From Bacteroidota bacterium (GTDB lineage Bacteria; Bacteroidota; Bacteroidia; AKYH767-A; OLB10): DNA of 64,000 bases. The stretch is taken from positions 191,553 to 255,552 of the forward strand of contig JAGVTU010000024.1 of the NCBI GenBank assembly GCA_019136655.1, written 5' to 3'. The notes below the pieces were generated by a model, which was not told the origin of the DNA, did no database searches, and saw only the letters and a list, made by a program, of their open reading frames with translations. Positions 54,878 to 59,505 of this stretch are shown here, piece after piece; within the stretch, counting starts at the first letter, position 1, and each line of letters begins with the position of its first letter. A program made the translations under genes and the position numbers.

Positions 54878-54885
54878 CAAAGCTA
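54878..54885 (-). promoter_or_regulatory. -7 promoter element TAGCTTTG for the proline-rich protein
   Basis: An exact TAnnTTTG match on the minus strand, 28 bp before the ATG at 54849. Confidence 0.5.
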
Positions 54886-54907: not shown

Positions 54908-54944
54908 GTTATCAATGAGTTAAGATGGGTTAAAGATTCGTTAA
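54908..54944 (+). promoter_or_regulatory. Four phased GTTA(A/T) half sites, candidate response-regulator operator
   Basis: GTTAT at 54908 and GTTAA at 54919, 54929 and 54940, spaced 11, 10 and 11 bp, all on the same DNA face. They end 26 bp before the -7 element of the kinase-regulator operon, where an OmpR-type activator would bind. Confidence 0.5.
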
Positions 54945-54970
54945 ACAGATTATCCGTTCTTAAAGAAGTT

Positions 54971-54978
54971 TAAATTTG
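54971..54978 (+). promoter_or_regulatory. -7 promoter element TAAATTTG for the RprXY-like operon
   Basis: An exact TAnnTTTG match, 5 bp before the GTG at 54984. No -33 TTTG is visible, which is expected if an activator binds the upstream half sites. Confidence 0.5.
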
Positions 54979-54983
54979 CAATT

Positions 54984-56681
54984 GTGAACAGAAATAAGAT
55001 AATCATCATAACCATTCTTATGGCCAGTGCCTTCATTGGAATTGTATCCATGCAGGTCAACTGGATATTGCACGATTATCAGCTGAAAGAACAACAGTTT
55101 AATCAAAGAGCAAATGATGCATTGATGGCAGTAGCAGTTAAACTGGAAAAAAAAGAAGCATACAATATCATCAGCAACAGTTTTATTTCTTTCAACAACG
55201 ATTCTATCTTTTCATTGCTGCGCGAAAAACAAATGCTTGACAAACAATGGATGGAGGACTCACCTGACTCTGAAAATTCTTACGACCAAAAAAATTTAGA
55301 CAACAATCCCAAGACTCCACCCATACCACCTACCCCACCGGTTCCACCCGAACTGAATGACCCTCCATTGACACCTGATTTCAATAAAGACGAAATAAGA
55401 ATGGTGATAAGCCACATGGGCGGACGTAAAATTGTCATACATCACAACAGGCAAGTGCTGACCATAGATGATTCGACACAAACTGCAGAGAATAATCTTA
55501 AGACAGAAAAGATCAAAGCTGCTATTCTTGAAAAACAAAAATCAAAAATTGAAGCCAAAATAAACAGCTGGAATAAAGTTGTTCAGAATATGGCCTTTGA
55601 ATTTATCACTGATGAAAAAGATATTGAAAGCCGAATCAATCCTGTGCAATTAGACTCAATCATTCAAACTGAACTTAATGGAAGAGGAATTGAAACACCT
55701 TATCACTTCGGTGTTGTAAATGTAGGTGAGAATAATATTATGACCACTGATGCACCTGAGTTTAAGTCAGAAATTTTAGCGAGCCGATATAAAACAGATT
55801 TATTCCCGAATGATTTATTGGCAAAACCGGTATTACTTTCAGTTTATTTTCCTGACAGCTTCAAATATGTTCTTTCCACCATGTGGGTTATGCTTATCAG
55901 CTCTTCTGTGTTCATCATTATCATGCTTATTGGAACGGCATATACTATTTATGTGGTGTTCAGACAGAAAAAGCTTTCGGATATTAAAACGGATTTTATC
56001 AATAACATGACCCATGAATTCAAGACTCCGATAGCTACTATCTCTCTTGCAAGTGATGCTGCGGGCAGCCCTGCCATAGCTCAAAATCCAGAGACTCTTC
56101 ATCGCTACCTACATATCATCAAAGAAGAAAATCAACGGATGCATAGTCATGTGGAGTCAATATTGCAAATGGCATTACTCGATAAAAAAGGATTAAACCT
56201 TCAGCTGGAAAAATTTAATCTGCATGATTTAATACATAAGGCTGCTGAACAATTCAGGTTGCCTGTTGAGAGTAAAGGCGGAAAAATAGAACTTAACCTT
56301 AATGCAGCGCAGTCTGTAATAACAGGTGACCAAAACCTGCTGTATAATTCTATTGCCAACTTAATTGATAATGCCAATAAATACAGTCCGCTGCAACCGA
56401 ATATTAAAATCAATACAACCAACATTCACAACAGTATTCAGATATTGATAAGTGACAATGGTATTGGTATGAGCAAAGAAGTTCAAAAGAATATCTTTGA
56501 AAAATTCTACCGAGCAACCACCGGAAACTTGCATGATGTAAAAGGATTTGGACTCGGGTTAAGCTTTGCAAAGGCAATTATTCAGGCACATCATGGTGAA
56601 ATAAGAATTCTGGAAAGCACTGTGCATGTTGGAACAACCATGGAAGTTTTAATACCCTTACAACAATCTATACGAAAATAA
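54984..56681 (+). CDS. Sensor histidine kinase, RprX-like
   Basis: A 565-residue kinase. Helix 1 is at about 5-27 (IIIITILMASAFIGIVSMQ) and helix 2 at about 298-325; the periplasmic domain of about 270 residues contains a proline-rich stretch (PPIPPTPPVPPELNDPP, about 112-130) and a Lys/Glu-rich coiled coil. The H box is INNMTHEFKTPIATI (H344), then N box LIDNANKYS, G1 SDNGIGMSKEV and GFGLGLSFA. The start is GTG at 54984, five bases after the -7 element; the next ATG, at 55020, would cut the membrane helix. It is followed 43 bp later by its OmpR-type regulator. Confidence 0.87.
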   Translation: MNRNKIIIITILMASAFIGIVSMQVNWILHDYQLKEQQFNQRANDALMAVAVKLEKKEAYNIISNSFISFNNDSIFSLLREKQMLDKQWMEDSPDSENSYDQKNLDNNPKTPPIPPTPPVPPELNDPPLTPDFNKDEIRMVISHMGGRKIVIHHNRQVLTIDDSTQTAENNLKTEKIKAAILEKQKSKIEAKINSWNKVVQNMAFEFITDEKDIESRINPVQLDSIIQTELNGRGIETPYHFGVVNVGENNIMTTDAPEFKSEILASRYKTDLFPNDLLAKPVLLSVYFPDSFKYVLSTMWVMLISSSVFIIIMLIGTAYTIYVVFRQKKLSDIKTDFINNMTHEFKTPIATISLASDAAGSPAIAQNPETLHRYLHIIKEENQRMHSHVESILQMALLDKKGLNLQLEKFNLHDLIHKAAEQFRLPVESKGGKIELNLNAAQSVITGDQNLLYNSIANLIDNANKYSPLQPNIKINTTNIHNSIQILISDNGIGMSKEVQKNIFEKFYRATTGNLHDVKGFGLGLSFAKAIIQAHHGEIRILESTVHVGTTMEVLIPLQQSIRK

Positions 56682-56724: not shown

Positions 56725-57432
56725 ATGTCAATACTCACAGGCAGAACCAAAATAATGATAGTAGAAGACGATACTAACTTTGGTATGGTGCTAAAAGATT
56801 ATCTCGCATTGCATGATTACGATGTACTCTTATATCGTGACGGTCAGCAAGCCATAGAAAAATTCGAACCCGGGAAATTTAACCTGTGCATCCTTGATGT
56901 GATGATGCCTGTTATGGATGGGTTTACCCTTGCCGAAAAAATCAAAGAAAAAGATCATCATGTTCCAATTATTTTTCTTACCGCAAAATCCATGAAAACG
57001 GATATGGTAAGAGGATTCAAAATAGGAGCTGATGATTATATTACCAAACCATTTGATTCAGAAATATTGTTGCTAAAGATTAAAGCCTTGCTCAACCGAA
57101 GCGAAACCATTGTTAAAGCTGCCAACGAACAGGTGGAATTTACAGTAGGTGGTTTTAAGTTTAACAGCAGGTTGCGTACAATTGAGGGATTTGGAAAAAC
57201 TCAGAAATTATCGCCAAAAGAAGCAGCATTGCTTGCCTTGTTATGCCTTTATCTGAACGATATATTACCAAGGGAAGTGGCTCTGCGCAAAATATGGAAT
57301 GACGACAATTATTTCACTGCCCGCAGTATGGACGTTTTCATTACAAAGATCAGAAAGTATCTTAAAGATGACCCAAAGGTTGAACTGCTGAATGTGCATG
57401 GCAACGGCTATCGCTTAGTAGTAATAGAATAA
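56725..57432 (+). CDS. OmpR-family response regulator, RprY-like
   Basis: A 235-residue regulator. Receiver: IMIVEDDTNFGMVLKDYLALHDYDV, phospho-acceptor D58 in LCILDVMMPVMDG, FLTAKS and ITKPFDSE. The C-terminal winged helix has KLSPKEAALLALLCLYLNDILPREVALRKIW and NVHGNGYRLVV. The receiver sequence closely resembles RprY of Bacteroides/Porphyromonas, which pairs with RprX. It is downstream of the kinase and likely autoregulates the operon through the phased half sites. Confidence 0.9.
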   Translation: MSILTGRTKIMIVEDDTNFGMVLKDYLALHDYDVLLYRDGQQAIEKFEPGKFNLCILDVMMPVMDGFTLAEKIKEKDHHVPIIFLTAKSMKTDMVRGFKIGADDYITKPFDSEILLLKIKALLNRSETIVKAANEQVEFTVGGFKFNSRLRTIEGFGKTQKLSPKEAALLALLCLYLNDILPREVALRKIWNDDNYFTARSMDVFITKIRKYLKDDPKVELLNVHGNGYRLVVIE

Positions 57433-57472: not shown

Positions 57473-57480
57473 TATATTTG
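57473..57480 (+). promoter_or_regulatory. -7 promoter element TATATTTG for the TPR-kinase
   Basis: An exact TAnnTTTG match, 21 bp before the ATG at 57502. A TTG at 57478 that would extend the frame lies inside it. Confidence 0.5.
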
Positions 57481-57501
57481 GAGGCAACTACCCTGCTTCC
57501 C

Positions 57502-59505
57502 ATGGATAACTGTTATCTAAGACGGATTTTTCTTTTATGCATTTTGACATGCATATTTTTCCCCTCCATATCCGTATTTGCACAAACTAATAGTAACAAC
57601 GACATACAAACTTCTGTTGACAAATATATGAAGCTTCGAAAAGAAGACTCCATTGCTGTTGACATTATAAAAAGCATCATATATAAATATCAGAAAAATG
57701 ACCGACTGAGTGATACTTGCATGTGGTGGATTGACAGTTTACGCATTGCAGGGTCTAAATTAAAACGTCCTGACCTGATAGCACAAAGTGATATATATAC
57801 AGCTCAATTTTATATCCGCACTGCGGACGATGCACGTGCTATGGATTATCTATACAAAGCATTGACACAGTTTCGCAAACTAAAAGATGCAAGTGGGGAA
57901 GCAAATGCCTTTTTACAAATCGGGCTTATTCATTACTTACAAAAACAGTATAACGATGCTATTGAAAACCTTGGATATTCAGCTGATATATATAAAAGAG
58001 AATCCAGAGACAGCAGTTTGTCAACGGTTTATTACCTAATGGGTTTAAGTTATGTTAATCTTAAACAATGGCAAAAAGCAGAAGAAATGCTGAACGCTGC
58101 TTTGGCAAAAAACCTAATCACTAATAATGACGACCGTTATTTTGAATATTATGTCGCTCTCGCAGATTTATACACTTTGCAAGAAAAATATGATGAAGCT
58201 TCAATTATATTTAAGAAAATATTCTCTACATGGAATGATCCAAATGATAAATATGGAACCTGTATGGTATTGGTGCCATATAGCAGAATGCTCATTGGAA
58301 AAGGAGAATTAGACTCTGCATATAACACTTTACAAAATGCTTTGGTAATTGCAAATGAATTCTCCTTAATTGATTTTAAAATAAATATTCTCAATTTACT
58401 TTCACAATACCATTCTAAAAAGGGAGAATTTAAAGAAGCCAATAGTTATCTTTTAAAATATTACACACTGCGTGATTCTGTTTTTACTGCCGACAGTCAT
58501 AAAACAATCAACATGCTGAAAACTAAAATCGGATATGACAGGCAGGAAGACAAGTTAAATTTTTTGACTCAGAAAGAAAAAGTAAGCAAATTACAAAAAA
58601 TAGTTTTAGCCCTTTGTGTATTTATTCTCTTGGTAATCTCCATTGGATTGTACAGAAGATACAGCTTTAAAACACGAAAAGAAAAAGAACTGAATAAAGC
58701 CAATACAGAATTGAATAAAGCTTTGCATAACATAAGGCAAGCACAGAATCAACTTATTCAAACTGAAAAAATGGCCTCACTTGGGCGCATGTCCGTAGGG
58801 CTTGCGCATGAATTACGTAATCCATTGAACTTTGTAATCAACTTTGCTAAACTCACGAGTGAACTGACGCATGAAATTGAAAACTCGAAACAAGGTTCAA
58901 ATTCTGATGAATTATATAACCAAATACATAAAAATCTTGAATTGATTTATCAACACTCTTTGCGTGCGGAGAAAATAATCTTTGACATGGTAAAACATAC
59001 TCAATTCCCTGACAAAAATAAAACGGTTGATAATCTGAATAAAATTTTAAACGAATTTTCAAACGTTGCATTATACAGCTATAAAAACCATACCCCTGAA
59101 TTTGATTGTGCAATACATTTAGACGGAGACCCAAATCTTAAAGAAGTTAAAATCAGCCCTCATGAAATGATGACTATTGTGCTGAGCATTTTTAACAACG
59201 CTTTTGACAGTATGTATCAGCGAATGCAACTAATAACAGGGTTCAAACCTATTCTGAGAATTACGACCAAAGATGTAGGGCACGCTGCTGAAATAAGCAT
59301 TATTGATAATGGCAATGGCATAAGCGATGAAATCATGGATCACATTTTTGAGCCTTTCTTCACTACCAAACCTTTAGGCAAAGGAACAGGGCTGGGTTTG
59401 AGTATGTCATACGAAATTATCAGATCACACAATGGTACTATTACAGCTAAATCCATTCCCGGATTTCAAACTGAATTTATTCTAACTATTCCTTATGTAT
59501 CTTAA
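57502..59505 (+). CDS. TPR-repeat sensor histidine kinase
   Basis: A 667-residue kinase. Signal-anchor region (RRIFLLCILTCIFFPSISVFAQ), five or more TPR units in the periplasm (e.g. ANAFLQIGLIHYLQKQYNDAI, STVYYLMGLSYVNLKQWQKAE), one membrane helix (about 372-392), a coiled coil, then the kinase with GRMSVGLAHELRNPLNFV (H436) and DNGNGISDEIMDHIFEPFFTTK with GLGLSM. No receiver domain or adjacent regulator of its own is seen, so it may be an orphan or signal to another regulator. The ATG at 57502 is fixed by the promoter. Confidence 0.88.
   Translation: MDNCYLRRIFLLCILTCIFFPSISVFAQTNSNNDIQTSVDKYMKLRKEDSIAVDIIKSIIYKYQKNDRLSDTCMWWIDSLRIAGSKLKRPDLIAQSDIYTAQFYIRTADDARAMDYLYKALTQFRKLKDASGEANAFLQIGLIHYLQKQYNDAIENLGYSADIYKRESRDSSLSTVYYLMGLSYVNLKQWQKAEEMLNAALAKNLITNNDDRYFEYYVALADLYTLQEKYDEASIIFKKIFSTWNDPNDKYGTCMVLVPYSRMLIGKGELDSAYNTLQNALVIANEFSLIDFKINILNLLSQYHSKKGEFKEANSYLLKYYTLRDSVFTADSHKTINMLKTKIGYDRQEDKLNFLTQKEKVSKLQKIVLALCVFILLVISIGLYRRYSFKTRKEKELNKANTELNKALHNIRQAQNQLIQTEKMASLGRMSVGLAHELRNPLNFVINFAKLTSELTHEIENSKQGSNSDELYNQIHKNLELIYQHSLRAEKIIFDMVKHTQFPDKNKTVDNLNKILNEFSNVALYSYKNHTPEFDCAIHLDGDPNLKEVKISPHEMMTIVLSIFNNAFDSMYQRMQLITGFKPILRITTKDVGHAAEISIIDNGNGISDEIMDHIFEPFFTTKPLGKGTGLGLSMSYEIIRSHNGTITAKSIPGFQTEFILTIPYVS

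Follow-up and report, generated by a model that had tools for sequence, protein, structure and literature searches.

A phased GTTAA array as the probable bidirectional operator of an RprY-like system and its proposed Cpx-like envelope-stress regulon in Bacteroidota

To our knowledge, the sensing and repair of envelope damage are poorly known in the Bacteroidota by comparison with the Cpx and sigma-E responses of E. coli. Within the window, by which we mean the whole 64,000-nucleotide stretch of Bacteroidota DNA analysed here, a sensor kinase and response regulator operon is preceded by a series of short direct repeats that also face a divergently transcribed gene, raising the question of which protein binds these repeats and which genes they govern. 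The first-pass annotation had read the repeats as four helically phased half sites of an OmpR-family regulator, forming an activator-dependent, autoregulated promoter that might also control the divergent gene. The analysis described below indicates that this reading is right and that the finding is wider than the annotation had stated: very probably, judging from the sequence evidence, the array is a bidirectional autoregulatory operator of the operon's own RprY-like regulator, which would run a Cpx-like envelope-stress regulon.

The four half sites are present as proposed, at spacings of 11, 10 and 11 bp (Table 1), and as tandem direct repeats lying 10-11 bp apart on one face of the DNA they have the form of an OmpR/PhoB-type operator. 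In the whole 2.96-Mb genome the pattern GTTAAN5-6GTTAAN5-6GTTAA has a single match, the window array itself, while the same pattern read backwards has 0 matches. Relaxing the last base adds solely the overlapping upstream triple across the genome, and by a rough composition estimate a four-box chain is expected about 1e-4 times per genome.

Table 1. Coordinates of the array, the flanking promoter elements and the genes they serve (window positions).
Feature	Position	Strand	Remarks
Divergent exported proline-rich protein, 113 aa	54511..54852	-	Signal peptide, NGxxxxIDTTF segment, Pro-rich tail
-7 element of divergent gene, TAGCTTTG	54878..54885	-	
Half site 1, GTTAT	54908..54912	+	Reads ATAAC on the - strand, 27 bp upstream of the divergent gene's -7 box
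Half site 2, GTTAA	54919..54923	+	Kept in same-genus relatives L003 and L004
Half site 3, GTTAA	54929..54933	+	Kept in same-genus relatives L003 and L004
Half site 4, GTTAA, promoter-proximal	54940..54944	+	Start lies 31 bp upstream of the kinase -7 box
Place for a -33 TTG/TTTG box	54945..54970	+	None present
-7 element of kinase operon, TAAATTTG (TAnnTTTG)	54971..54978	+	31 bp from the start of the last box
Sensor histidine kinase	54984..56681	+	HisKA + HATPase_c; two TM helices; GTG start
OmpR/PhoB-family response regulator, RprY-like	56725..57432	+	Probable binder of the array

The regulator carries the Pfam domains Response_reg and Trans_reg_C (receiver and winged helix) of the OmpR/PhoB family, in keeping with its earlier assignment to the OmpR-type regulators. 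Among NCBIfam models RprY scores highest (284.6 bits, against 168 bits for the next), which upholds the description of the operon as RprXY-like; since this score lies under the curated 370-bit cut-off of the RprY model (NF051850), the protein is named RprY-like only. The regulator adjoins the kinase in the operons of 30/30 relatives, and its recognition helix is near-invariant. The periplasmic domain of the kinase contains a proline-rich tract (window 55300-55380); an AlphaFold model of the sensor domain is of middling confidence (pLDDT 69.6), with low confidence in the proline tract, and comparison of this model with the PDB gave no significant match. The operon is followed immediately by a second sensor-kinase-like gene on its strand (window 57478-59505), which has a repeat-like N-terminal region.

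Conservation of the array was assessed among kinase orthologues taken at the genus, family, order and class level, for which 30 promoters were examined (L002-L031), and among 80 named genomes, in 62 of which the kinase gene immediately precedes that of the regulator (52 from outside the gut Bacteroidales families and 10 from within them). Two or more exact GTTAA boxes at 10- or 11-bp spacing, always in one orientation, are found in 30/30 of the relatives' kinase promoters and three or more in 18/30; arrays are likewise present in 36/52 of the named genomes outside the gut Bacteroidales, these counts taking related genomes as independent. The conserved operator at the operon's own promoter is what an autoregulated two-component system would display, and the comparison, in which absence of conservation would have told against the annotation, leaves its proposal standing. 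Array-bearing named genomes include Flavobacterium, Arenibacter, Tenacibaculum, Pedobacter, Mucilaginibacter and Carboxylicivirga, so that the range of the array reaches the Flavobacteriia, Sphingobacteriia and Marinilabiliales. In the gut Bacteroidales, arrays occur in 0/10 of the named kinase promoters while the recognition helix is equally conserved, and covariation between helix and array fails there.

Could such an array be a product of chance or of the composition of AT-rich intergenic DNA? Two-box matches that are not conserved do exist, 5/13 of the places at which they occur in this genome being absent from a congener. Against this, arrays appear in 0.37% of shuffled sequences and almost never with scrambled boxes, in 3/395 (0.8%) of unrelated intergenic windows from the same loci and in 1/2138 coding windows; a figure of 3.2% of all windows counts the promoters themselves, and the intergenic and coding values are the clean controls. 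Because the array is conserved far above these two controls, the question is settled: conservation rules out a chance origin, which is further contradicted by the rigid geometry described below and to which we attach practically no probability.

The position of the array relative to the promoter is as regular as the array itself. As had been noted, the array stops just before the place of a -33 box, and no TTG or TTTG element is found between its end and the -7 box. Among kinase promoters that have a strict -7 box, the distance from the start of the proximal GTTAA box to this element is 31-33 bp in 26/28 of those from relatives and 32-34 bp in 26/26 of those from named genomes; it is 31-33 bp in 12/17 GTTAA-oriented promoters of DegP and DUF5916 genes. 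Promoters that read the array in the TTAAC orientation (the divergent gene, most DUF5916 genes and the beta-barrel gene) mostly lie at 26-27 or 37-38 bp. The spacing therefore follows orientation: GTTAA arrays stand 32±1 bp, and TTAAC arrays 27 or 38 bp, from TAnnTTTG. Read rightwards towards the kinase, the window array fits the first rule at 31 bp; read leftwards towards the divergent gene it fits the second, at 27 bp from the GTTAT box and 38 bp from the next. As both rules are satisfied by the same repeats, one array probably serves both promoters.

The TAnnTTTG element occupies positions -12 to -5, and 5.5% of mRNAs in F. psychrophilum are leaderless (PMC9723704). Transcription of the kinase operon is predicted to start at about 54983, giving a leader of about 0-1 nt before the GTG codon at 54984, and the end of the -7 box lies 2-8 nt from the kinase start codon in 28/28 relatives with a strict -7 box; with the box so near the start codon, the kinase mRNA is predicted to be leaderless or nearly so. 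A scan for promoters and terminators of the E. coli type gave background levels.

Control of the divergent gene by the array, raised earlier as a possibility, is supported by the 27-bp geometry, by the conservation of the divergent partner, whose family has divergently oriented members next to the operon in many relatives, and by an unlinked homologue that has an array of its own; on this sequence evidence the exported protein is a probable member of the regulon. Pfam has no match for the window's protein or for two further members, and finds in two others a T9SS sorting tail only; no sequence likeness to CpxP/Spy (LTxxQ) or to known families was detected. The proline tracts of the protein and of the periplasmic domain of the kinase covary (Spearman 0.80, n=13 relatives, kinship uncorrected), and kinases without a divergent partner have no periplasmic proline tract, observations that together suggest a role as sensor partner. 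A small exported protein encoded divergently behind a shared operator is CpxP-like in arrangement, and the divergent protein would be a candidate for a partner that exerts feedback on the kinase.

The same operator is found well beyond this locus. The proposed genome scan for GTTAA-N5/6-GTTAA returned 14 two-box matches at 13 distinct places, of which the congener keeps 8/13 beside the same genes: the kinase operon, DegP/HtrA, an S41 protease, MoxR with a DUF58-like gene, a TolC-family gene, an M1 peptidase, a TetR-TolC cluster and the gene of a DUF5916 outer-membrane protein. Phased pairs recur among the relatives in 22/30 DegP, 22/30 MoxR and 19/30 DUF5916 promoters, and in named genomes, including Chryseobacterium and a Weeksellaceae isolate, in 16/21 MoxR and 16/22 DegP promoters. 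Perfect triples at unlinked places precede a DUF5916 gene, a gene homologous to the divergent one and, in two genomes, outer-membrane beta-barrel genes that are orthologues of each other. The operator thus stands ahead of a DegP-type protease and of other envelope genes, as in a Cpx-like regulon, and none of the conserved sites lies at phosphate genes. In relatives of family f5, arrays are present at the kinase promoter and absent at DegP and MoxR. The outer-membrane beta-barrel gene was rejected as a general target, pairs being found in only 6/30 homologues, several of which are the closest orthologues.

How might such an array work? In E. coli, ArcA and PhoB bind 11-bp direct repeats head to tail, and the half site of ArcA is GTTAA-like; by analogy, dimers of the regulator would bind the phased half sites head to tail. 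The CpxRA-CpxP system of the same organism is an autoregulated operon that includes DegP in its envelope-stress regulon and shares its regulatory region with a divergently transcribed gene whose product is small and exported. All three properties would have counterparts here, although the divergent proteins are unrelated in sequence, the Cpx half site is GTAAA and the phyla differ. ArcA sites comprise 2-5 direct repeats, 11 bp from centre to centre (PMC3798270), and resemble the window array in repeat form and in placement on one helix face; ArcA nonetheless belongs to another regulator subfamily and governs a carbon-oxidation regulon, whereas the window array combines 10- and 11-bp spacing with a fixed distance to the -7 element. 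Read rightwards and leftwards, the array would serve the kinase-regulator operon and the exported protein, and both promoters are most likely activated through contact of the bound regulator with RNA polymerase, as we infer from the fixed, orientation-dependent -7 distance and the missing -33 box. With further arrays ahead of DegP/HtrA, MoxR-Bat and DUF5916 genes and, in the genus, of the S41 protease, TolC-like proteins and M1 peptidase, that is, before envelope quality-control genes, the system would act like a Cpx-type envelope-stress response of the Bacteroidota.

Literature on a Bacteroidota regulon or GTTAA motif of this kind was found only in papers on Riemerella and on RprY. In Riemerella anatipestifer, the PhoPR operon consists, as here, of a kinase gene followed by a regulator gene (RAYM_RS09735 and RAYM_RS09740); the DAP-seq motif core of PhoP is TTTAACA, termed highly similar to that of ArcA, and PhoP occupies its own operon as well as the moxR promoter and those of a TonB receptor and an outer-membrane beta-barrel gene (PMC5399024, PMC9603813). 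Its direct targets number 34 repressed and 16 activated (PMC9603813), with MoxR and Bat genes activated and a Do-family endopeptidase and outer-membrane proteins, the beta-barrel protein among them, repressed (PMC9603813, PMC5399024). From targets and gene order only, Riemerella PhoP is likely an orthologue of the window regulator, and the overlap of its targets with the regulon described here is strong independent support. The two systems differ in that the site reported for PhoP at its own operon lies at -156 to -121, that its DAP-seq peaks number 583, and that neither a phased multi-box array nor its -7 geometry was found described for Riemerella. In P. gingivalis, RprY binds the promoter of its own gene and has been discussed as a self-regulating repressor (PMC3646045). 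RprXY, known also from Bacteroides fragilis, is comparable to the window system in that it supplies the regulator's best family match and in that RprY of P. gingivalis binds at home, as the window regulator probably would; it differs in that the window regulator falls below the family cut-off and the gut Bacteroidales kinase promoters tested have no GTTAA arrays.

The Riemerella and P. gingivalis data bear directly on the sign of regulation. The same regulator, on the same operator, might act mainly as a repressor at its own promoter, an array near the -33 region blocking RNA polymerase, with some other targets activated. We consider this possible, if distinctly the less probable course: it accords with the predominance of repression among PhoP targets, with the discussion of RprY as a repressor, and with an orientation of the kinase promoter that differs from that of most TTAAC-type targets, while simple blocking needs neither a -7 spacing kept within 1 bp across large distances nor the lack of a -33 box. 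These two features of the sequence favour activation at the kinase promoter; the repression of some PhoP targets, including a DegP-type gene, argues against one sign for all.

Another regulator of the OmpR/PhoB family, such as a PhoB-like protein, might occupy the arrays, with the kinase-regulator operon as just one of its targets, but this seems improbable. TTAAC repeats do resemble the Pho boxes of Bacillus and cyanobacteria, and genomes of this kind likely hold several OmpR-family regulators. It is nevertheless the kinase-regulator operon that the array fronts in every relative and in most named genomes outside the gut families, and two genomes of family f4 in which no kinase reached the match threshold also lack arrays at the promoters tested (G026 at DegP and MoxR, G029 at DegP). 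The conserved targets moreover include no phosphate genes, for which reason a Pho-regulon reading was dropped. Binding by the operon's own regulator remains the reading that we prefer.

No description of the phased arrays or of their -7 geometry was found in the literature. Whether the present data define an undescribed RprY-like envelope-stress regulon in most Bacteroidota outside the gut Bacteroidales, with a two-orientation code (GTTAA at 32 bp, TTAAC at 27 or 38 bp from the -7 element) and a core array that would drive the sensor operon together with an exported partner co-evolving with the sensor's periplasmic proline-rich segment, is in our judgement evenly balanced. A conserved operator of fixed geometry allows a regulon to be read straight from genome sequences over much of the phylum; it provides a likely regulator for DegP, MoxR-Bat and DUF5916 genes, points to the exported protein as a candidate sensor partner, and gives the Riemerella PhoP data a context in which to be read.

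Several further observations were made in passing. Both in G000 (14 vs 30) and in G003 (18 vs 35), GTTAA-N5/6-GTTAA has fewer matches than its reversed pattern, which suggests avoidance of stray sites. In congener G002 (C53:15901-19537; L040, L057, L099), an outer-membrane beta-barrel homologue lies a short way downstream of a DUF5916 gene that has a TTAAC array, the two perhaps forming one operon. Chitinophagaceae-type genomes have an RprY-like regulator without an adjacent kinase (L120, L123, L129, L133, L138, L140, L146, L147), and a TTAACAAAA-like element recurs upstream of the regulator in several of these loci. One of them, L129, lies on a contig labelled as an Azovibrio restrictus MAG and holds a Bacteroidota-type regulator locus; the label is probably wrong.
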